A stretch of DNA of 53,262 bases from Acidimicrobiia bacterium (GTDB lineage Bacteria > Actinomycetota > Acidimicrobiia > Acidimicrobiales > AC-14), in NCBI GenBank assembly GCA_023265025.1, contig JAHFUP010000001.1, positions 93,792-147,053 on the forward strand. Direction: 5' to 3'. The position numbers and the translations under genes are program-made. Positions 564 through 15,151 of this stretch are shown here, in pieces. Under the pieces are notes generated by a model. It was not told where the DNA came from. It worked only from the letters and a program-made list of their open reading frames with translations, and ran no database searches. Every line of letters begins with the position of its first letter. Within the stretch, counting starts at the first letter, position 1.

Positions 564-2072
564 TCAGGCCGCTGGCGGCTCGTCGTCGGGTGACGCTTCG
601 TCGTCCACGGTGGCGTCGTCCTCGTCGTCGAGGCCGCCCGGGTCGGTGCCGTCGTCGATCGCTGCGTCCTCGGCCACACGCTCGCGGGCGGCCGCCACCT
701 CGGCGTCCTCGAACGGGTCGGGCTCATAGCCGAGGCTGGTGAGGGCCTCGACGTAGCGGACGCCACCGTCGCCATACCCGCCGTAGGAACTGATGCGCTC
801 CTCGGCGCAGCTCGCGGCCATCGCCGTGGCCACGCGCAGCAGGTCGGCGCTGGAGCGGTCGGCCAGCTCGCGGATGGGCCGGTGCCAGTCCTTGCCGCCC
901 CAGCGGCTGGCGGCGGGCTCGACACCCAGCAGCGCCCCGGCGCGAGCCCAGGCGTTGCCGTTGGCCTGCTCCATGAGTGCGTGGAGGCAGAACGTCGTCG
1001 CATCGCGAGGCTTGGGCACGCTGCGGCGGGCGAGGGCCTCGGCCAGGAACTCGGCCCGGCGCCGAAGCACCCGCTTGCGCTCCGAGCGGCGCTCGCGGTC
1101 CTCGGGGCTCTGGCCGACGACGGTGGCCGCCGTCACCTGGAGCTCGGAGCGGCTGGCCGCACCTGCCTTCGCTGTGTGACGTCTCGGCTCGTCGCAAACC
1201 TCGACAACCTCGACGCCGCGCAGGTAGCGCTCGACCACGACCGCGTGGCACGGCTCGGCCTTGTGGTCGGCCACCTTGAAGCCGAGATCGCGGAGGCGCT
1301 TGGCCTTGGACTGGCTCACGCTGGTCGACTCGATGACGCGGTGGCCCTTGGCCTCCTGCTCGGCCACGGCCTCGGCGTAGGCCTCCTCCTGGCGGCGCTG
1401 GGCGATGCGGCGCTCGATGACCATGGCGATGTCGTGGCGGTTCCAGGCCGGCAGGGCCAGCACCTCCTCGATGAGCTCGGGCTGGTCCTTCACCTTGACC
1501 AGGGCGGCCACGTCGGTCATCGACAGCTCGCCGGTGTCAACCGCGAGCTGGGCACGCTCGGGCAGCTCCAGCAGGGCCATGTGCGCGCTCACGTGCTTGG
1601 CGCTGCGGCCGACCTTGGCCGCCAGGCGGCGCACGGTACAGCCGAGGGAGACCAGCCGGAGGTAGCCCGCGGCCCGCTCTGACGGACTCAGGGGCGTGCG
1701 GTCGTCGTCGTTCTCGGTCAGCATGATCTCGACCTGCTCGGCCTCGGTGAGGTTCTTGACCACACAGGGGGCGACGGCCAAGCGGGCGGCCCGAGCTGCG
1801 GTCAGTCGGCGCTCGCCCGCGGCCAGCAGGTAGGTGCCGTCCTCGGACGGGGTGACGATCAGGGGTACGACGATGCCGACCTCGGCGATCGACTTCGTCA
1901 GGGCCTTGATGTCGCCCACGCGGCGGCGAAGGTTCAGAGGGTTGGTCCTAAGCCGCTCCAGCGGGATCTCCACCAGCATCGCCTCGGCCTTCGCCTCCGT
2001 CGCCTCCGGTTCCATTGCTTCGATCGGGGCGTCCGTCGCCTCGGTCGTTGTCTCTGCGGTTGCTGTGCTCAT
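564..2072 (-). CDS. ParB-like partition/nucleoid-occlusion family DNA-binding protein
   Basis: A 502-residue protein with an N-terminal ParB/sulfiredoxin-fold domain (about residues 32-125) carrying the ParB boxes GERRLTAARAA and LTEN. A helix-turn-helix follows (RRLAAKVGRSAKHVSAHMAL, near 145-165), then a long C-terminal extension ending in an acidic, Asp/Glu-rich tail. ParB proteins bind centromere-like sites, and the N domain is a CTP switch in characterised members. I chose the ATG at 2072 because GAGAGGAGC lies just upstream and the frame further up is only Arg/Pro-rich shadow. No parA is adjacent. The preceding gene stops at 2075, so the two are probably co-translated. The context (ArdC-like peptidase, no chromosomal origin genes) suggests a plasmid or integrative-element ParB rather than the chromosomal one. 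Confidence 0.85.
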   Translation of the reverse strand: MSTATAETTTEATDAPIEAMEPEATEAKAEAMLVEIPLERLRTNPLNLRRRVGDIKALTKSIAEVGIVVPLIVTPSEDGTYLLAAGERRLTAARAARLAVAPCVVKNLTEAEQVEIMLTENDDDRTPLSPSERAAGYLRLVSLGCTVRRLAAKVGRSAKHVSAHMALLELPERAQLAVDTGELSMTDVAALVKVKDQPELIEEVLALPAWNRHDIAMVIERRIAQRRQEEAYAEAVAEQEAKGHRVIESTSVSQSKAKRLRDLGFKVADHKAEPCHAVVVERYLRGVEVVEVCDEPRRHTAKAGAASRSELQVTAATVVGQSPEDRERRSERKRVLRRRAEFLAEALARRSVPKPRDATTFCLHALMEQANGNAWARAGALLGVEPAASRWGGKDWHRPIRELADRSSADLLRVATAMAASCAEERISSYGGYGDGGVRYVEALTSLGYEPDPFEDAEVAAARERVAEDAAIDDGTDPGGLDDEDDATVDDEASPDDEPPAA

Positions 2073-2074
2073 CT

Positions 2075-2407
2075 TCAGTTGCTCCTCTCCAGGCCGTGCT
2101 TGGCCAGGATTCGTTGCGTGGTGGCAGGCCAGCCCGGCCCGCAAGGGAGAACTGAGAACCGCGTCCCGTCGTAGGTGACGCTCACCGCGTCGTCGTCGCT
2201 GGCCACGATCCACGCCCGGCCGTCGGCCATGGCCAGCGCCCGGGCCTGGCCGACGACCATCGCCAGGTGGCGGGTCGCCGCCTGGCGGGTACCGCCGGCG
2301 TCGACCACCCGCCACCAGCACGGCCCGGCGTCGACGGACGGGGCGAACAGCCGGCCCTGGTAGCCGGGGGCCAGGCCCGGGCGCACGCAAGCCTCAGCGC
2401 CGCTCAC
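2075..2407 (-). CDS. Hypothetical 110-aa protein of the ParB operon
   Basis: An unrecognised 110-residue protein. The start is GTG at 2407, overlapping the TGA of the metallopeptidase gene in a GTGA arrangement, which makes it clearly preferable to start codons further upstream. The C-terminal half (AWIVASDDDAVSVTYDGTRFSVLPCGPGW in part) looks like a small beta-rich domain, and the protein ends close to the ParB start (2 bp between stop and ATG). There are no membrane segments. Its place between peptidase and ParB genes suggests an accessory role in the same element. The function is unknown. Confidence 0.65.
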   Translation of the reverse strand: MSGAEACVRPGLAPGYQGRLFAPSVDAGPCWWRVVDAGGTRQAATRHLAMVVGQARALAMADGRAWIVASDDDAVSVTYDGTRFSVLPCGPGWPATTQRILAKHGLERSN

Positions 2408-3309
2408 GCGCTCGCCGCCAGGTCCTCGGCCCCGGCCGGGGCCATGGCCGCCAGCACGGCCTGGGCGGTGGTCACCACGCGCTCGGCCGTGCGCCTGATG
2501 CGCTCGACGCTTCCCCCCGACCATACCGCCACGTAGGCCAGGCTGTAAGAGGCGCTGTCGATGCCGAGGGCGTTGCACACGATGTAGGCCACGCTCTCGG
2601 CCTCGATCTCGGCCAGGTCCCGGTCGATCACCTCCTGGGTCTCGTGGTCGAGGAGCACGTGCCCCAGCTCGTGCGCGAGGGTCTTATCAGCCTGCCTACC
2701 GCTCAGGTGCTCGGCGACGACCACGGTGCGCTCGGCGAAGTTCGTGCACCCGTTTGCGCTGCCACAGCCGCCCCGGCTCACGGTGAACCCCGCCGCGGCG
2801 ACCTGGGCGGCCAGGGCGTCCCACAGTGCCCCCTCCCCCTCCAGGAGCACCGGGCGGACCTCGGGAAGAGACTCCCCGGTGGTGTCGCTCTGCGCGAACA
2901 CGTGCACCACCTTGAATCCGCGCAGCACCCGGGCGGCTCCTGCGCTCTCGGTCGTGCTGTCGGCCTGGTTGTCGGCCGGAGCGGTGGACGGGCCTGCCTC
3001 CCCCGCGCCACGGCGGCGGTAGACGCAGGGTGCGAGTATGGCGATGCCCTTGGACCCGGCTTGCACCTGTCGGCCGAGGCGCTTCCACGTCTGGTATCCA
3101 GCCACTCTGTCGCCGGTGGTGGCCAGATCGGGGCGTTGAGCCAGAATGAGCCACAGGTTGTTGGCCGAGTAGCTGTGGAACTGGGCGGCCACGCTCAGGT
3201 ACCGGGCCCAGTCCTCACCGGTCACCAGGGCCTCGACCTGGGCGACGAGGCGGTCGTGCAGCTCCCGGACCTTGTCGGCCTTGTCGGTGCTGGCCACGGC
3301 GGCGCTCAC
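2404..3309 (-). CDS. ArdC-like protein: N-terminal ssDNA-binding-type domain plus zinc metallopeptidase
   Basis: A 301-residue protein. Residues about 10-140 match the ArdC/DUF1738 pattern (FHSYSANNLWLILAQRP, GYQTWKRLGRQV, KGIAILAP). A zincin-like domain follows, with HELGH at about residues 213-217 and a downstream EAESVAY glutamate helix, as in ImmA/IrrE-type peptidases. ArdC proteins of conjugative plasmids protect incoming DNA from restriction, and this architecture is common on actinobacterial mobile elements. The start is GTG at 3309, overlapping the stop of the upstream gene (GTGA). Residues about 100-125 form a low-complexity linker between the domains. The role as an antirestriction protein is inferred. 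Confidence 0.8.
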   Translation of the reverse strand: MSAAVASTDKADKVRELHDRLVAQVEALVTGEDWARYLSVAAQFHSYSANNLWLILAQRPDLATTGDRVAGYQTWKRLGRQVQAGSKGIAILAPCVYRRRGAGEAGPSTAPADNQADSTTESAGAARVLRGFKVVHVFAQSDTTGESLPEVRPVLLEGEGALWDALAAQVAAAGFTVSRGGCGSANGCTNFAERTVVVAEHLSGRQADKTLAHELGHVLLDHETQEVIDRDLAEIEAESVAYIVCNALGIDSASYSLAYVAVWSGGSVERIRRTAERVVTTAQAVLAAMAPAGAEDLAASA

Positions 3310-3656
3310 GGCCGGGCCTGGGGCTGGAGTCGGGCGACGACGGGGTGCAGGTAGGCCTCCTGCTCGGGGCCGAGGCGCTCGGCGTGGCCATCGGCCCACA
3401 GCACCCGCACGGCGGCAACCTCGCCCGTGACCTCGGGGGCCGGGCCGTCAGGGTCGCACAGCCGGTAGAGGGCGTCGGTGCCATCGCTGCCGAATTCGTG
3501 GACGGCCAGGTCCCGGCACGGCGCACCCGGCTCGGGGTGGAGTTCACACGGCCGGGCCAGGCGGACCCACACCTGCACGCCGGCCAGGGGTCCTAGGTCG
3601 TCGACGCTGAGCCAGCCGGCCCGCAGTCCTTCATAAACCGTCGGGTAGATGCCCAT
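3306..3656 (-). CDS. Hypothetical 116-aa protein
   Basis: An unrecognised acidic protein of 116 residues starting at the ATG at 3656. It has three cysteines in its first two thirds (CELH, CRDL, CDPD) and a Val/Trp-rich middle, and no membrane segment. The upstream sequence has a purine-rich GAGGAGACGCGCT stretch that could serve as ribosome binding site. Its TGA overlaps the GTG of the metallopeptidase gene, so the two are translationally coupled and presumably act in the same process. I can offer no function. Confidence 0.65.
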   Translation of the reverse strand: MGIYPTVYEGLRAGWLSVDDLGPLAGVQVWVRLARPCELHPEPGAPCRDLAVHEFGSDGTDALYRLCDPDGPAPEVTGEVAAVRVLWADGHAERLGPEQEAYLHPVVARLQPQARP

Positions 3657-5201: not shown

Positions 5202-6536
5202 TCAGCGACCGAACCGCGCCGGCTGGATGCCGTAGGACAGGAACTCCCTGCCCGTCCACAGCAACGGCGTCTGGTAGGTGACGCCGGCGGGCGCTCGCTC
5301 GAGGCGGGTCCAGCGGTCAGCCGACGGGTCCCACGCCGCGGTGTCGCGGTCGTCCATCGGATCCGGGCCGGTCACGATGCTGTGGCTGAGGCTGAAGATG
5401 GCGGCCCCGGTCCAGTAGGACTCCGGCGGTCCGTCATCGAGTGGCCCGTGGCGCATCGGTGTGTAGGTGTCCGTGCCCGGGTCATAGCGCAGCCCGTAGC
5501 GGTCGAAGGCAGCCGGTCCGGAGGAAAACCCGCGAAAGACGCCGGCGGCCGGGATCAGGACTTCCTCGCCGGTCCAGTACGCGACCTTGACCCCGATGGG
5601 CTTTTCCCCCTGCCCGGGCCGCAGTGTCCACTGACCCGTGGCCAGATCGAGGCTGAAGAGGTCGATGCCCCAGGCGATCTTGCCGCTGCCGGTCACCGGA
5701 GAGATATCGCGGTGAGTCCACAGAGCCCAGGCCAGAAGCTGGCCGCCCGTCCAGACCGCGACGACGCTGACCAGCTCGCGCTCCGCCGCCTCGGGAATGG
5801 GCGACAAGGACCTCCACCGGTCGGTTGCCGGGTCGTAGGCCGCGACCGACCGCTCGGAGGTCACCACGATGGCCTCGCGACCAGTCCAGACCGCCGCCAG
5901 CACGCGCTCGGCGTCCGTAGGGCCGGCTGCCACGGGGCGCCAACGATCCGCCGCCGGGTCGTACGCACCGCCGCGCCCGGCCGGGGCCACTCCGTTGCGG
6001 GAGTTGGCATCCAGTGCAGTCTGGCCACCGACGACGAGCAGCTCCGCCCCTGTCCACAAGGACGTGGCGCCGTAGCGAACCGGCACGCCGATCGAGCCGG
6101 CGATAGGTCGCCACTGCGACCGGGTCGGATCGAAAGCGGCGCCGTCAGCGAGTATGTGTCCATCCCGGGTCACGCCACCCCAGACCACCATCTCGCGGCC
6201 GGTCCATACGAGGGCCGCCTGGTCCCGAGGGTCGATGGGGGCCACCGGCAGTTCGGACCATCGGTAGGCACTGAGGTCCTTCGCGGTGGCTCCGGTCCCC
6301 TGGGTGGTCGCCGGCGGCGCGGTCGTCAGTTCCCCGCGCCGCGCCGGCTCTCGCTGGATGGACACCGTGACGGTTCCGATGAGGGCGAGGACGGCGACGC
6401 CGACCCCGGCAGCCCGCTGGGCACCGCGGCGGCGCCTTGCCCGAGTCCTCAACGTGGCGGGATCAGGCGTAGTCGGGGGCTCGAACCCCTCGGCTGCGGC
6501 GTGTAGGAGGCTGGTGATCTTGACGGACTCACTCAC
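5202..6536 (-). CDS. Membrane-anchored kelch-like beta-propeller protein coupled to an ECF sigma factor
   Basis: A 444-residue protein. Residues 1-41 are cytoplasmic and basic near the end (RTRARRRRG). Residues about 42-60 form one membrane helix, and the rest should be extracytoplasmic. The outer part carries seven WTG-type repeats (WTGREMVVWGG, WTGAELLVVGG, WTGREAIVV, WTGGQLLAW, WTGEEVLI, WTGAAIFSL, WTGREFLSYG), each before a Tyr/Trp-rich D-x-x-x-x-x-W strand, fitting a seven-bladed kelch/galactose-oxidase-like propeller. The GTG at 6536 overlaps the TGA of the sigma gene. The cytoplasmic N-terminus may tether or inhibit the sigma factor, but it has no zinc anti-sigma (HxxxCxxC) motif, so this is inference. 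Confidence 0.8.
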   Translation of the reverse strand: MSESVKITSLLHAAAEGFEPPTTPDPATLRTRARRRRGAQRAAGVGVAVLALIGTVTVSIQREPARRGELTTAPPATTQGTGATAKDLSAYRWSELPVAPIDPRDQAALVWTGREMVVWGGVTRDGHILADGAAFDPTRSQWRPIAGSIGVPVRYGATSLWTGAELLVVGGQTALDANSRNGVAPAGRGGAYDPAADRWRPVAAGPTDAERVLAAVWTGREAIVVTSERSVAAYDPATDRWRSLSPIPEAAERELVSVVAVWTGGQLLAWALWTHRDISPVTGSGKIAWGIDLFSLDLATGQWTLRPGQGEKPIGVKVAYWTGEEVLIPAAGVFRGFSSGPAAFDRYGLRYDPGTDTYTPMRHGPLDDGPPESYWTGAAIFSLSHSIVTGPDPMDDRDTAAWDPSADRWTRLERAPAGVTYQTPLLWTGREFLSYGIQPARFGR

Positions 6537-7057
6537 GGAGAGACTCCTCGATAGGTGGAGGGTTCTGAACCGTCCTCATTCAAGAACCCTGCGGACCGGA
6601 GGGCAGCCAGCGCTCGAGCGGACCGACTCTTCACGGTGCCCGGCGAACAGCGGAGGATGGTGGCGATCTCGGCCTCGCTTCGATGCTCGAAGTAGCGCAG
6701 GACGAGCACAGCGCGCTGGGGGCCGGGAAGGGCGGCAAGGCAGCGCATGACCAGGTCGGCGTCGTCCACCGTCCCAGCGGCGTCGATCACCGCCACGCAA
6801 TCGAGATGTGCCGTCGCCTGTTCAGCGCGCCAGCGCCGCCGGCCCCAGCGAATCGCGAGGCGAGCCATGACGGTCCGGGTGTAGGTCTCGGCGGCCGCCG
6901 TGTCATGCAGCCGGCCCCAGGCTTGAAAGGTGCGGATGAGCGATGCCTGCGCCAGGTCCTCGGCGTGGCCTCGATCCGCGGTGAGGAGGAAGGCGGTCCG
7001 GACGAGCGCCCCATAACGGTCTGCCATGAAACGGGAGAACTCCTCGTCCTCAGCCAC
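6533..7057 (-). CDS. ECF-type RNA polymerase sigma factor (SigE-like family)
   Basis: A 174-residue protein with region 2 at about residues 12-75 (YGALVRTAFLLTADRGHAEDLAQASLIRTFQAW) and region 4 at about 105-160 (LPGPQRAVLVLRYFEHRSEAEIATILRCSPGTVKSRSARALAAL). This is the standard two-domain layout of extracytoplasmic-function sigma factors. The start is GTG at 7057. It is the first gene of a two-gene unit, overlapping the propeller-protein gene by GTGA, which implies co-translation and a signal-receiver partnership. No ECF-type autoregulatory promoter (AAC/CGT type) stood out upstream in 7058-7345. Confidence 0.88.
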   Translation of the reverse strand: MAEDEEFSRFMADRYGALVRTAFLLTADRGHAEDLAQASLIRTFQAWGRLHDTAAAETYTRTVMARLAIRWGRRRWRAEQATAHLDCVAVIDAAGTVDDADLVMRCLAALPGPQRAVLVLRYFEHRSEAEIATILRCSPGTVKSRSARALAALRSAGFLNEDGSEPSTYRGVSP

Positions 7058-10350: not shown

Positions 10351-11316
10351 CTAAATCCCTCGCTCCTCGTCGAGGATTTCCCTGCACAAGTCGACGCACT
10401 CGTTGCAGATCTTGACTGCAGACCCGGAGGCGATCCCCCCGACGTGGGCTCGCTTCTTGCCACAGAAGCTGCATTTCGTCTCGGCCTCAATCGATCCGAC
10501 CGGGACCAGCTGGACGCGGTCGTTGGCACACTGCTCACCGACGCTCAGGACCTCATCGCTCAGGTCGATGCAAAGGTCGCAGATGTAGACGCCGGGACCG
10601 GCGATCAGCTTGCAGCCCTTACGTTGAGCGCGGCTGCAGAAGGTGCACGTCAGATCCGCCCGCGTCCGACCGGTCGGTTCTGCCGTTCCGCCCTCGGAGT
10701 CCTTTGTTGCCTCGTCGGCAGCGTCAGCGAGTGTGCTGTCGGGGCCCGATCCGCCACTGCTGTCGATGCGGTCGACCGAACCTCCCGAGTTCGCGATCGC
10801 GCGACGAATGCCCCTGCGCACCCACCACCTGGCATAGGTTGAGAATCTGAAGCCCCTGCGCCAGTCGAACCTCTCGACCGCATGCATGAGGCCGAGGTTG
10901 CCTTCCTGCACCAGGTCGAGAATGGGTAGCCCCGTAGCTCGATACTCTTCAGCGATCGTCACGACCAGACGCAGGTTCGCCTGGATAAGGGTTCTGTTGG
11001 CCACAGCACCGGCTCGGGTGATGGCGCGAAGCTCGCTCAAACCCTCGGCGGGAGGGGCCGATCCTTTCCCGTCTAGTCTCAGGCGGGCTTCCTTCGAAGC
11101 CTCGATCGCCCTGCCCAGGCGTACTTCGTCATCTCTACTCAGGGTTGGGTACTGCTCGATGTCTGCCAGATAGTCCTGGTAGAGGTTCCCAGACATGACC
11201 CACGTCCCTTCGGCATCGCGCCGCACCGTCGGCGTCAGGGCAGCACGACCTCGGCGCCTACCGTTCAGGATCTGCTTGACGTCGACGGATGTCAAGGACG
11301 GCGATGCCTCAACCAT
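10351..11316 (-). CDS. Sigma-70 region 1.2-2 protein fused to two ClpX-type C4 zinc fingers
   Basis: A 321-residue protein. Residues 43-77 resemble sigma region 1.2 ([21 protein letters not shown]). Residues 108-175 are a complete sigma region 2 with the core-binding and -10-melting motifs ([60 protein letters not shown]). After a Ser/Gly/Asp-rich linker (178-222) there are no regions 3 or 4 but two ClpX zinc-binding domains: Cys224, 227, 246, 249 and Cys282, 285, 304, 307, each CxxC-18 residues-CxxC, with [20 protein letters not shown] and [16 protein letters not shown]. The ATG at 11196 (residue 41) is an alternative start. Without region 4 it cannot read a -35 box in the usual way; the fingers may bind a partner, DNA or a ClpXP component (inference). 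Confidence 0.85.
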
Positions 11317-12488: not shown

Positions 12489-12519
12489 TTGACCTTGCCC
12501 AGGGGTGAGGCCTCATGAT
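12489..12519 (+). promoter_or_regulatory. MerR-type promoter with 19-bp spacer, copy 1
   Basis: TTGACC (12489-12494) and CATGAT (12514-12519) are 19 bp apart, the over-long spacing typical of MerR-activated promoters. The spacer (TTGCCCAGGGGTGAGGCCT) is nearly the same as that in front of the paralogue at 14154-14184. The inferred start site leaves a leader of about 10 nt before the ATGATG at 12536. Autoregulation is likely. Confidence 0.6.
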
Positions 12520-12535
12520 CGTCGTCGTGGACGAC

Positions 12536-13484
12536 ATGATGACGATCGGTGACTTTTCCAGTCGCTGTGGGCTCTCGCCCAAGGTGTTACGGACCTACGC
12601 AGAGGCGGGCGTACTCGTACCGGCGCTCGTCGATCCGACCTCTGGATACCGGTACTACGAGCTCGCCCAGCTCGACCAGGCCGACACCGTGCGCCTCTTG
12701 CGACGAGCCGGCGTCGGGCTGGCCGACATCGGCCAGTTCCTTGCCGAGCCGTCGGCCAACGCGGTGGACGGCTGGGAGCGCTCGCTGACTGCGGAGACCT
12801 TCAGCCGACGTGGGGCGCTGGCCGAGGTGCGCTGCCGTCTTGGTGTCGGTCCCGAGAAGATCAGGGGCGCCACGGCGATCGAGGTGCATGCCGTGCGCGA
12901 CCTCGCCGACCTGAGGTCCGCCTTCGACCTGGCCGGCGCGCAGCTGCCCGAGCCGATCGACAGCGGGGACCACCGCATCGACGATCTTGTCGAGCGTTTC
13001 GCGACCGACCAGCCGCTCATGGTCGTGGCCACCGTCGAGGGGAATGTGGTCGGTGGTGCGCTCGGGTTCCGCAACGACAACGGCACGGTGACGCTGCGCA
13101 TCATCGGCGTGGTCTCTGCGTTTCGTCACCGAGGCACAGGCCGTCGCCTCGTCGAGCGGGTCGAGGCGGAGGCCCGGGCTCGGCGCCCACTCCGTGGCAC
13201 TGGGCACCGACGAGGCCGTCGGGTTCTGGTACCACCTCGGCTATACCCCGAACCTGCTGTTCCAGTGGGTCTACGACGCCGATCTCTTCGAGACTGAGAC
13301 CGATGCGATGCTCAACGGGCCGCTCGCGGGCCTGCACTTCTGGCGCTCATCGTTCAACGGCATCCCCCAGCTGTTCGTCGAGCTCGATGAGCCTCGCCTC
13401 GATCTGCGCCACGAGGTCCGGGAGGCGGTCACCGGGTGCCACGTCGGCTTCATGATGTCCAAGAGGTTCACCGACCGGCGATGA
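12536..13484 (+). pseudogene. MerR-family regulator fused to GNAT acetyltransferase, copy 1, frameshifted
   Basis: An N-terminal MerR helix-turn-helix (IGDFSSRCGLSPKVLRTYAEAG, then SGYRYYELAQL) is followed by a GNAT domain (VVATVEGNVVGGAL, GVVSAFRHRGTGRRLVERVE). The frame breaks at GGG 13176-13178. Removing one G restores ARLGAHSVALGTDEAVGFWYHLGY and the rest up to the TGA at 13482-13484, matching the intact paralogue at 14201-15151. The usable start is the ATGATG at 12536; the ATG at 12515 lies inside the promoter -10 box and is not conserved. As read, the protein would lose the acetyl-CoA-side C-terminus. Confidence 0.8.
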
Positions 13485-13673: not shown

Positions 13674-14012
13674 ATGACGAGCGGCGTCCATCATCTGTAT
13701 GTCGAGACTCGCGATTGGGCTGGAAGCCTCGCCTTCTGGGAGGCACTCGGGTTCCGCCTTGACGAAGGGTGGGGCGTTCAGCAGCACGACGGCGTCCTCT
13801 CGCCAGTCGATGGCAGTGGCCCGTACGTGTTCCTTCGACAGGCTCCAGACGACCAGGACGATCTGGCGCTCCAAGTGGTCTTCGGTGCGCGGGACCTCGA
13901 TCTGGTTGTGGATGCTCAGGGAGTGCTCGTCGATCGTCCGCGCTATTCGAGCGGCTGGGGACCGGACCTCCTGGACGTCCGGGACCCGGACGGCCGGCTC
14001 CTCACGATTTGA
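13674..14012 (+). CDS. VOC-family (glyoxalase/bleomycin-resistance fold) protein
   Basis: A 112-residue protein with the paired beta-alpha-beta-beta-beta units of the vicinal-oxygen-chelate fold: VHHLYVETRDWAGSLAFWEALGF at the start and a C-terminal GWGPDLLDVRDPDGRLLTI, where DPDG is the usual turn before the last strand. His6 could be a metal ligand. Such proteins act as glyoxalases, thiol transferases or antibiotic-sequestering proteins; the ligand here is unknown. It sits between the two MerR-GNAT paralogues and may be a cargo gene of the same duplicated unit. The ATG at 13674 is the only sensible start. Confidence 0.82.
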   Translation: MTSGVHHLYVETRDWAGSLAFWEALGFRLDEGWGVQQHDGVLSPVDGSGPYVFLRQAPDDQDDLALQVVFGARDLDLVVDAQGVLVDRPRYSSGWGPDLLDVRDPDGRLLTI

Positions 14013-14153
14013 GAGGATCACGGCGGGTGAGGCGCCATTCGGTGAGGTCGTGCTCGGTGCACCCGTCACCGGCGGTAGATGACAGGCAGACCGTCAGAGC
14101 TCGTCCGGTCTTATGGGGCAGCAGGTGCGGGAAGGAGGGGTTTCGCCAAAGGC

Positions 14154-14184
14154 TTGACCTTGACCAGGGGTTAGACCTCATCAT
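14154..14184 (+). promoter_or_regulatory. MerR-type promoter with 19-bp spacer, copy 2
   Basis: TTGACC (14154-14159) and CATCAT (14179-14184) are separated by exactly 19 bp. The spacer TTGACCAGGGGTTAGACCT differs in only a few positions from that of copy 1, while the surrounding sequence is less conserved. The leader to ATG 14201 is about 10 nt. The spacing conservation argues that the MerR domain of the downstream protein binds here. Confidence 0.62.
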
Positions 14185-14200
14185 CGGTGTCGTGGACGAA

Positions 14201-15151
14201 ATGATGTCGATCGGCGAATTCTCGAGCCGCTGTGGGCTGTCACCGAAGGTGCTGCGCAGCTATGCCGAGGCCGGCGTGCTCGACCCGGCCGCAGTGGACC
14301 CGGCAACCGGCTACCGCTACTACGACGCCGCCCAGCTTGAAGAGGCGGAGACCGTGCGGTTGCTCCGACGAGCAGGAGTCGGCCTAGCCGAGATCGCTCG
14401 ATTTCTTGGTGCACCGACGCTCGACGCCCTCGACGGCTGGGAGCGCTCGCTGATCGCGGAGACGCTGAGCCGTCGTGAGGCGCTAGCGCAGATTCGGTGC
14501 CGCCTCGGTCCGGGGCCGATGCGAACGAGAGGAGCGACTGTGATCGAGCTTCGTCCGGTACGGGACCCTGAGGAGTTGGCGACGGCCTTCGATCTGCTTG
14601 GCGCGCAGCTTCCCCAGCCCATCGACTCCAACGATTGGCGGTTCGACGACCTTGCCGACCGCTTCCCGGCCGACCAACCGATCATGGTCCTGGCCGCGGC
14701 CGATGGCGACGTCGTTGGCGGAGCGCTGGCGTTCCGGGAGGACAACGGAGCGGTGGCCCTTCGTATCGTCGGGGTCGTCGAGTCGTTCCGCCACCGTGGC
14801 ATCGGCCGGCGCCTTGTCGAGCGGGTGGAGACAGGGGCCCGGCTCCTCGCCGCTCACACCATGGCATTGGGCACTGACGAGGCGATCGGCTTTTGGTATC
14901 ACCTCGGCTACACGCCGCACCTGATCCTCCAGTGGGCGTACGACCCCGATCTCTACGAAGCCGAGTCGGAAGCGGTGCTGAGCGGACCGCTGTCCGGGCT
15001 TCGGTTCTGGCGCTCATCGTTCAACCAGATTCCACAGCTCTTCGTGGAGCTCGATGAGCCCCGCCTGGATCTGCGCCGGACCGTTCAGGAGGCGGTAGCC
15101 GGCTGTCACGTGGGGTTCATGATGTCCAAGAAGTTCCCAGCCGCTTCTTGA
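14201..15151 (+). CDS. MerR-family transcriptional regulator fused to a GNAT acetyltransferase, intact copy
   Basis: A 316-residue protein. Residues 1-70 are a MerR DNA-binding domain (SIGEFSSRCGLSPKVLRSYAEAGVL, TGYRYYDAAQLEEAETVRLLRRAGVGL). Residues about 112-240 are a GNAT domain with the acetyl-CoA loop RHRGIGRRLVERV and the strand MALGTDEAIGFWYHLGYTPH. The remaining 60 residues are shared only with the paralogue at 12536. The effector of the regulator may be the acetylated substrate, or the acetyltransferase may be regulated by its own promoter (preceding feature). ATG 14201 or 14204 could be used; no ribosome binding site is evident in the very short leader. Confidence 0.85.
   Translation: MMSIGEFSSRCGLSPKVLRSYAEAGVLDPAAVDPATGYRYYDAAQLEEAETVRLLRRAGVGLAEIARFLGAPTLDALDGWERSLIAETLSRREALAQIRCRLGPGPMRTRGATVIELRPVRDPEELATAFDLLGAQLPQPIDSNDWRFDDLADRFPADQPIMVLAAADGDVVGGALAFREDNGAVALRIVGVVESFRHRGIGRRLVERVETGARLLAAHTMALGTDEAIGFWYHLGYTPHLILQWAYDPDLYEAESEAVLSGPLSGLRFWRSSFNQIPQLFVELDEPRLDLRRTVQEAVAGCHVGFMMSKKFPAAS

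Follow-up and report, generated by a model that had tools for sequence, protein, structure and literature searches.

Sigma-70 regions 1.2 and 2 joined to a pair of ClpX-type zinc fingers in an Acidimicrobiia bacterium, probably carried by mobile elements

Introduction

What could be the task of a protein that begins as a sigma-70 factor and ends in two zinc fingers of the ClpX type? Such a gene is found in the stretch of 53,262 nucleotides analysed here, which in the following we will simply call the window. The initial annotation, made from the letters alone, described a sigma region 1.2 to 2.4 followed by a linker and two CxxC-18-CxxC fingers, without regions 3 and 4. It suggested that this protein may be a core-binding factor steered by its fingers to DNA, a partner or ClpXP, which would make it a new kind of regulator. 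Here we describe the gene, its second copy, its distribution and its surroundings, and weigh the possible explanations of this architecture.

Results

Domain make-up and fusion point

The open reading frame 10351-11316 on the minus strand consists of 321 codons and is free of internal stops. Pfam matches comprise Sigma70_r1_2, Sigma70_r2 and two stretches of zf-C4_ClpX (9.3e-24 for the whole protein), and the pattern C-X2-C-X18-C-X2-C occurs twice (Table 1). This architecture of sigma part and fingers is far beyond chance. Thus, Pfam and the cysteine spacing confirm the anatomy that had been annotated. Neither Sigma70_r3 nor Sigma70_r4 was present among the Pfam matches to E 0.1, and no AAA family was among the Pfam matches that could indicate an AAA+ ATPase domain.

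For comparison at the residue level, a panel of 21 sigma factors was used, 19 from the best loci of relatives and two from the own genome. The motif RTIRLPVH at the opening of region 3 was seen in 19 of these 21 (of the exceptions, one reads RSIRLPVH and one ends at a contig edge). It is lost from both sigma-finger copies of the genome, the window gene and the paralogue described below, which places the fusion point at the 2.4/3.0 border. Together with the Pfam result, this loss agrees with the annotated lack of regions 3 and 4.

Table 1. Features of the sigma-finger gene, of its surroundings and of related double-finger proteins. Positions are those of the window unless a locus is named; residues are numbered in the 321-codon frame.
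Feature	Position	Strand	Basis and remarks
ParB-like partition gene of a probable mobile element	564..2390	-	Pfam ParB_N, HTH_ParB
ArdC-like antirestriction gene	2404..3399	-	Pfam ArdcN, Peptidase_M78; 48% relative near paralogue
Small gene, 156 aa	3765..4235	-	No Pfam match; 43% relative adjoins ArdC-like gene near paralogue
Sigma2-finger-finger protein, probable true CDS	10351..11196	-	281 aa, ATG at 11196
Sigma-70 region 1.2, residues 47-76	11089..11178	-	Pfam PF00140, E 1.4e-05; dN/dS 0.09 (residues 41-80)
Sigma-70 region 2, residues 110-175	10792..10989	-	Pfam PF04542, E 7.4e-19; dN/dS 0.16 (residues 106-181); carries DLVQEGN
Variable linker, probably disordered, residues 182-219, in the place of region 3	10660..10773	-	dN/dS 0.48; pLDDT mostly <50
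ClpX-type zinc finger 1, residues 220-262	10531..10659	-	Pfam PF06689; C224 C227 C246 C249; dN/dS 0.37
ClpX-type zinc finger 2, residues 277-321	10354..10488	-	Pfam PF06689; C282 C285 C304 C307; dN/dS 0.11
GAAGGGACGTGG, probable ribosome-binding region	11200..11211	-	Sequence comparison; identical in both copies
Conserved upstream block (TTGACATCCGTCG block)	11264..11296	-	Starts TTGACA, holds TTGAC-N10-GTCAA; possible operator or -35-type element
Double-finger-type proteins	L061:754-1803; L062:1069-1809; L063:1384-2181 (-); L026:1-777; L032:1033-2031 (-)		Helix-turn-helix-like region, 1-4 fingers, sometimes Clp_N

A second copy under selection

The genome carries a paralogue (G000:C164, L021:7301-8158). 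It is an intact ORF, 71% identical to the window gene, with all eight of the eight cysteines and equal Pfam domains. When 99 related genomes were searched with the whole protein, sigma-type matches were obtained in 99/99; among the matches listed, the sigma part and the fingers were both covered at two places only, both in the own genome.

Between the two copies, dN/dS was 0.27 over 281 aligned codons (Nei-Gojobori script), an estimate that, like those by segment, comes from the single pair of window gene and paralogue. By segment, the values were lowest in region 1.2 and highest at residues 81-105 (0.63), with the others as in Table 1. The low values in the four domains imply that sigma part and fingers have both been retained since the copies diverged; both are under purifying selection. 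The conservation of the architecture refers to these two paralogues only, as the fusion was not found in further species. A missed frame joining two separate genes had been considered in the initial annotation. No such artefact was seen: there are two diverged copies with a common architecture, and both of their parts are selected. A frameshift or chimera was likewise rejected on account of the second intact copy, 71% identical and of equal architecture.

Translation start and upstream block

Translation probably starts at ATG 11196, residue 41 of the 321-codon frame, giving a protein of 281 aa, because the stretch upstream appears conserved as DNA and not as protein. The sequence GAAGGGACGTGG lies immediately 5' of this ATG and of the corresponding GTG of the paralogue. 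According to blastn, the DNA likeness between the two genes stops at window position 11211. Beyond it there is a single common block of 33 bp, identical at 31/33 positions (window 11264-11296 vs L021 7157-7189), and blastn gave no other upstream similarity between the copies. The spacing from block to gene is unequal. In the case of the paralogue, the block is out of frame with the gene and a stop intervenes in the frame of the gene, which argues for conservation as DNA. A 24-base pattern taken from the block, with up to 3 mismatches allowed, had two sites in the own genome, one before each sigma-finger gene. A complete sigma-70 -10/-35 promoter pattern was not found near the gene. We read the block as a candidate operator or -35-type element of this two-copy family; alternatively, it may be left over from the duplication.

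Distribution of the architecture

The initial annotation had proposed to look for the sigma and finger profiles in one protein across genomes. Two fusion copies were found in the own genome and none elsewhere among the matches listed for the genomes searched. The finger-pair profile matched in 353 of 395 genomes of the class set and in 367 of 396 of the phylum set, two overlapping sets for which up to 12 candidates per genome were scored. Judged by match range, the listed matches were mostly single ClpX-type fingers, and among those listed only the two own copies scored above 86 bits. The whole protein matched at E <=1e-49 in 39 of 397 genomes of the order, with up to six candidates scored per genome; besides the two own copies, every listed place ends by query residue 141 of 281.

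In the genome contig collection there were 23 loci, none spanning both sigma part and fingers. Eight of these were read, one being a sigma factor and seven ClpX, some with a small one-finger gene ahead; the other 15 were judged by match range. On viral contigs, the whole protein gave 33 stretches and 0 relatives, the paralogue alignment gave no match past query residue 215 among the best 80 of 149 (by match range), and the finger pair gave 3 loci, all with ClpX-like proteins. The plasmid search gave 332 records, with no fusion among the 15 matches listed (by match range, with one protein, H1 below, also read). With the finger pair, 8 plasmid records were obtained: five annotated clpX, two unannotated single-finger records and H18, which is described below, again with no fusion. 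Six unannotated phage records matched the finger pair, none over more than 69% of the query. The viral, plasmid, phage and genome-contig collections to which these counts refer may lack the species of the window. The finger pair (window 10354-10665, minus strand) also matches phrog_6797 of PHROGs (107 positions, unknown function) at 3.3e-20. To judge from this match, two-finger proteins of a similar type may be present in phages.

Some candidates were followed up and rejected. The listed matches past residue 200 in G032, G066 and G006 are ordinary sigma factors without CxxC. A sigma factor on a Leptolyngbya plasmid (H1, with H2 at the corresponding place of a second strain) spans 88% of the query. 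It was rejected as a full-length relative because its translation continues past region 2 as an ordinary sigma and lacks CxxC pairs.

Other finger-bearing genes were observed on the way. On IMG/VR viral contigs, ClpX-like proteins of 420-432 residues from stop to stop are located at L168:5509-6771, L169:1442-2704 and L170:5962-7260. A small one-finger ClpX-type gene lies directly ahead of clpX at L187:7788-8162 and in L188, L189, L190 and L192, contigs mostly labelled Dormibacterota.

The sigma part

Among the matches listed, sigma factors from the same order come closest, with 58-62% identity over residues 45-181. A sigma factor of the same genome (G000:C103, L194) is 59% identical over query residues 44-181, but continues beyond region 2 with RTIRLPVH and more sigma sequence and has no fingers. 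In the panel of 21, 128 columns are conserved at 80% or more; the window copy matches 79 of these and the paralogue 82. Both copies retain DLVQEGN and FRFSTYA.WW, and with them the core-binding motif and the region 2 aromatics are kept. Together with the missing region 4, this bears out the sequence side of the annotated core-binding factor.

Four replacements stand out. K123E, K124E and T171R are found in both copies and Q168R in the window copy only, and the residues replaced occur in 20 or 21 of the 21 sigma factors. We take Q168 and T171 to be the -12-reading Q437 and T440 in E. coli numbering. As these four changes depart from the sigma consensus, DNA reading is perhaps altered or lost.

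The AlphaFold model is confident for the sigma part up to about residue 140 of 281, with a disordered linker. The top four Foldseek matches were mycobacterial SigA chains from initiation complexes (rmsd 1.4-2.4 Å over 136-147 columns). Taq sigma domain 2 with -10 ssDNA was also matched, with rmsd of 7.4 Å for 3ugo and 3.1 Å for 3ugp. Docking of this part on RNA polymerase is a prediction well supported by the sequence. The MZA anti-phage sigma factor MzaA was the top NCBIfam match and was rejected as an identity of the protein. Its model covers region 2 only (residues 100-177; 141.3 bits vs a cut-off of 800), and the PADLOC match covers residues 66-137 of 281.

The ClpX-type fingers and their relatives

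In a search of the sequences of solved structures (PDB), the seven best matches of the fingers were ClpX chains, so that their annotated membership of the ClpX family holds. Compared singly (pairwise BLOSUM), the paralogue's fingers came first, followed by those of ClpX. A finger tree weakly placed finger 1 next to a first finger from the helix-turn-helix-like proteins and finger 2 among their second fingers. This grouping is suggestive; the segments are short, the supports are low, and the second fingers of the two sigma-finger copies are not a clean pair. The AlphaFold model of the fingers is poor (mean pLDDT 52.6).

The helix-turn-helix-like double-finger proteins (Table 1) deserve a closer description. 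L061 carries Clp_N and two fingers after a helix-turn-helix-like region, with no AAA+ in Pfam; it is 46% identical (46/99 columns) to our finger pair, which has PVG in its inter-finger linker. Two fingers are also present in L062 and in L064, and four in L026. In L063, one finger passes the 1e-3 threshold and a second, longer one is visible by eye only. In L032, a helix-turn-helix-finger frame adjoins a finger-Clp_N frame, and L027 consists of Clp_N and one finger. The name helix-turn-helix-like is based on matches of the N-terminal region to several helix-turn-helix families and to Sigma70_r4, all below the curated cut-offs; the Sigma70_r4 matches, found in four of five proteins, had E values of 0.0024 to 0.04. 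Where these proteins have the helix-turn-helix-like region, the sigma-finger protein has regions 1.2 and 2 instead. No description of such actinobacterial proteins was found in the open-licence PMC text.

A stand-alone version is H18, from a linear plasmid of Actinacidiphila glaucinigra. Its CDS of 363 bp (120 aa), annotated 'ClpX C4-type zinc finger protein', aligns to the finger pair with 93% coverage and 35% identity, and the sigma part is absent.

Clp_N stands alongside ClpX-type fingers in L061, L027 and L032, all without an AAA+ domain. The two receptor modules of Clp are thus not restricted to unfoldases. Finger pairs without Clp_N are found in L062, L063, L064 and the 120-aa plasmid protein, so that a finger pair does not always point to a Clp link. 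Consequently, the fingers do not compel the annotated reading as a sign of the ClpXP protease, as similar pairs exist without AAA+, behind helix-turn-helix-like regions or alone. From these comparisons, we read the finger pair as a putative portable Clp receptor cassette.

Genomic setting

Next to the window gene lie genes of ordinary kinds: an APH-type gene, a methyltransferase, MerR-GNAT genes and an ECF sigma with a kelch-type gene. The two adjacent MerR-GNAT fusion proteins (12515-13297 and 13769-15151, plus strand) look tandem-duplicated. The ECF sigma gene (6533-7057) carries both r2 and r4. No region-4-only partner gene was present among the 10 window proteins and 9 other proteins that were scanned.

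Mobile-element genes are located about 6-11 kb from the window gene (Table 1). Beyond the ParB-like gene there is a TrwC-type relaxase-helicase. A type I restriction gene and a gene for a type IV coupling protein follow at a greater distance on the contig. In the case of the paralogue, two Pfam-confirmed tyrosine recombinases, an ArdC-like gene and an SSB adjoin within about 10 kb; the ORF between the two recombinases has no Pfam match. Type I restriction genes are present on the paralogue's contig as well. Judging by gene content, the sigma-finger gene likely resides on a mobile element, more so for the paralogue.

Two further features were seen in these surroundings. Just downstream of the paralogue, at L021:8198-11915 on the minus strand, adjacent ORFs resemble a recombinase trio. 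Both sigma-finger contigs also encode a type I restriction R-type protein that carries a Schlafen/AlbA_2 domain at its C-terminus (L205:6892-10725 and L203:52-3486, both on the minus strand).

Discussion

The sigma-finger fusion is real, selected and rare, and has partial precedents. It joins sigma-70 regions 1.2 and 2 to a cassette of two ClpX-type fingers and is probably carried by mobile elements. In the open-licence PMC text, a related combination was described in one paper only, PMC11119718. In the parts of that paper used here, zf-C4_ClpX makes up 6.29% of the accessory domains in cyanobacterial sigma-70 homologues, which thus combine sigma-70 domain(s) and zf-C4_ClpX in one chain like our protein, as far as a comparison by domain catalogue goes. 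The same parts describe a clan H of sigma proteins with r2, taken here to be without r4; r1_2 is associated in the Discussion with families A.1, A.5 and B.1.

Other precedents concern single parts. According to the sections of PMC2988020 consulted, domain 2 is the only part in which T4 gp55 is like sigma-70, and gp55 supports basal transcription that is accurate. The likeness of the sigma-finger protein is similarly limited, to domain 2 and region 1.2, and gp55 too has a C-terminal partner-binding part on a variable connector. Its partner motif, however, is a short sliding-clamp epitope, and zinc fingers are not mentioned in those sections (PMC2988020). In Bacillus subtilis, sigma4 and sigma2 reside on two proteins, SigO and RsoA (PMC8103513, in part). 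RsoA, like the sigma-finger protein, is a sigma2 part without sigma4, but SigO-RsoA is a pair, whereas a region-4 partner was not seen among the scanned neighbours of our gene. To our knowledge, RsoA has no fingers. The anti-sigma factor CsfB (Gin) links a ClpX-finger-like treble clef to sigma factors, but as a stand-alone homodimer. The excerpts of PMC5890618 used here describe it as a dimeric treble clef with a fold closest to the ClpX N-terminal domain that binds sigma-G at 2.1 and sigma-E at 2.2-2.3; its authors doubt shared ancestry with ClpX. In sequence, no such likeness was detected for our protein, with no Gin in Pfam to E 0.1 and no CsfB chain among PDB sequences to E 10. Given the cyanobacterial sigma-70 proteins with zf-C4_ClpX, gp55 and CsfB as precedents for its parts, the claim of a new kind of regulator finds no support as it was worded.

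RssB delivers RpoS to ClpXP. Binding to the ClpX finger domain has been described for the adaptors SspB and RssB (PMC7804408, in part), and the ECF sigma AntA is degraded by ClpXP (PMC8999054, in part). We tentatively prefer a reading in which the protein docks on RNA polymerase by its sigma domain 2 and uses its fingers as a Clp-type receptor, although we hold it to be somewhat short of probable. Sigma domain 2 would dock on the beta-prime clamp helices and may still read or open the -10 element. The two fingers would offer the surface by which ClpX binds adaptors and substrates, and could bring or sense a partner at RNA polymerase, be it an adaptor, a tagged protein or ClpX itself; this partner is a guess from the family of the fingers. 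The fusion would in this way couple the transcription of a few promoters to Clp proteolysis.

Alternatively, the protein could be an alternative sigma in the manner of gp55. Its domain 2 would then suffice to guide RNA polymerase to -10-type promoters, possibly those of the mobile element, and the fingers would take the place of region 4 in anchoring the protein to DNA, the RNAP flap or an activator. The retained regions 1.2 and 2 with their aromatics would suit this, as would the accurate basal transcription by gp55 (PMC2988020) and the split of sigma4 and sigma2 in SigO-RsoA (PMC8103513), as described in the parts of both papers used. The changes Q168R, T171R, K123E and K124E speak against it, as does the lack of a region-4-only gene among the neighbours scanned. 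Moreover, ClpX-type fingers bind protein and are not known to bind DNA, and a regulon is not seen because the upstream block occurs before the two sigma-finger genes only. Overall, we regard such a sigma as doubtful. A decoy that occupies the beta-prime clamp helices without initiating and damps host transcription, e.g. when the element enters a new cell, appears unlikely. It would fit the retained core-binding motif, the missing regions 3 and 4, the altered region 2.4 and the related ArdC-like antirestriction genes near both copies. However, region 1.2 contacts DNA and is the most constrained segment (dN/dS 0.09), which a mere decoy would not need, and the two conserved fingers would be left unexplained.

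A little less probable still is a self-inhibited factor whose fingers fold onto its own region 2 as CsfB binds its targets, with release on zinc loss or oxidation. The ClpX-like treble-clef dimer of CsfB and its binding at sigma-G 2.1 and sigma-E 2.2-2.3 (PMC5890618, in part) would make this conceivable, and the linker is long and variable. Such a factor is difficult to reconcile with the missing sequence likeness to Gin and CsfB in Pfam and PDB searches, with the doubts of the CsfB authors about common descent with ClpX (PMC5890618, in part) and with similar finger pairs in proteins lacking sigma region 2. Finally, the fusion was found in one genome only, a draft of 185 contigs, and could be a functionless relic or an artefact of the assembly. 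This is very improbable, as the genome has two diverged copies, on separate contigs, of equal architecture and with a common upstream block, and dN/dS is 0.09-0.37 across the four domains.

Returning to the Clp receptor reading, a wider version can be imagined. Mobile elements would carry a Clp receptor docked on RNA polymerase that recruits ClpX, its adaptors or tagged proteins to the start of transcription and so lets proteolysis act directly on the choice of promoters. In the same wider class of Clp-reading regulators, the promoter-bound counterparts would be the helix-turn-helix-like, Clp_N and double-finger proteins. As a whole, we consider this rather unlikely.

If the sigma-finger protein binds RNA polymerase, it would be a sigma relative that occurs naturally in bacteria and works although regions 3 and 4 are missing. 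The fusion also raises the question of what role the adaptor-binding module of ClpX plays when it is cut from the ATPase and placed on the transcription machinery. Seen alongside the helix-turn-helix-like versions, the fusion suggests that there is a group of regulators, so far unstudied, which might read adaptors or substrates of Clp.
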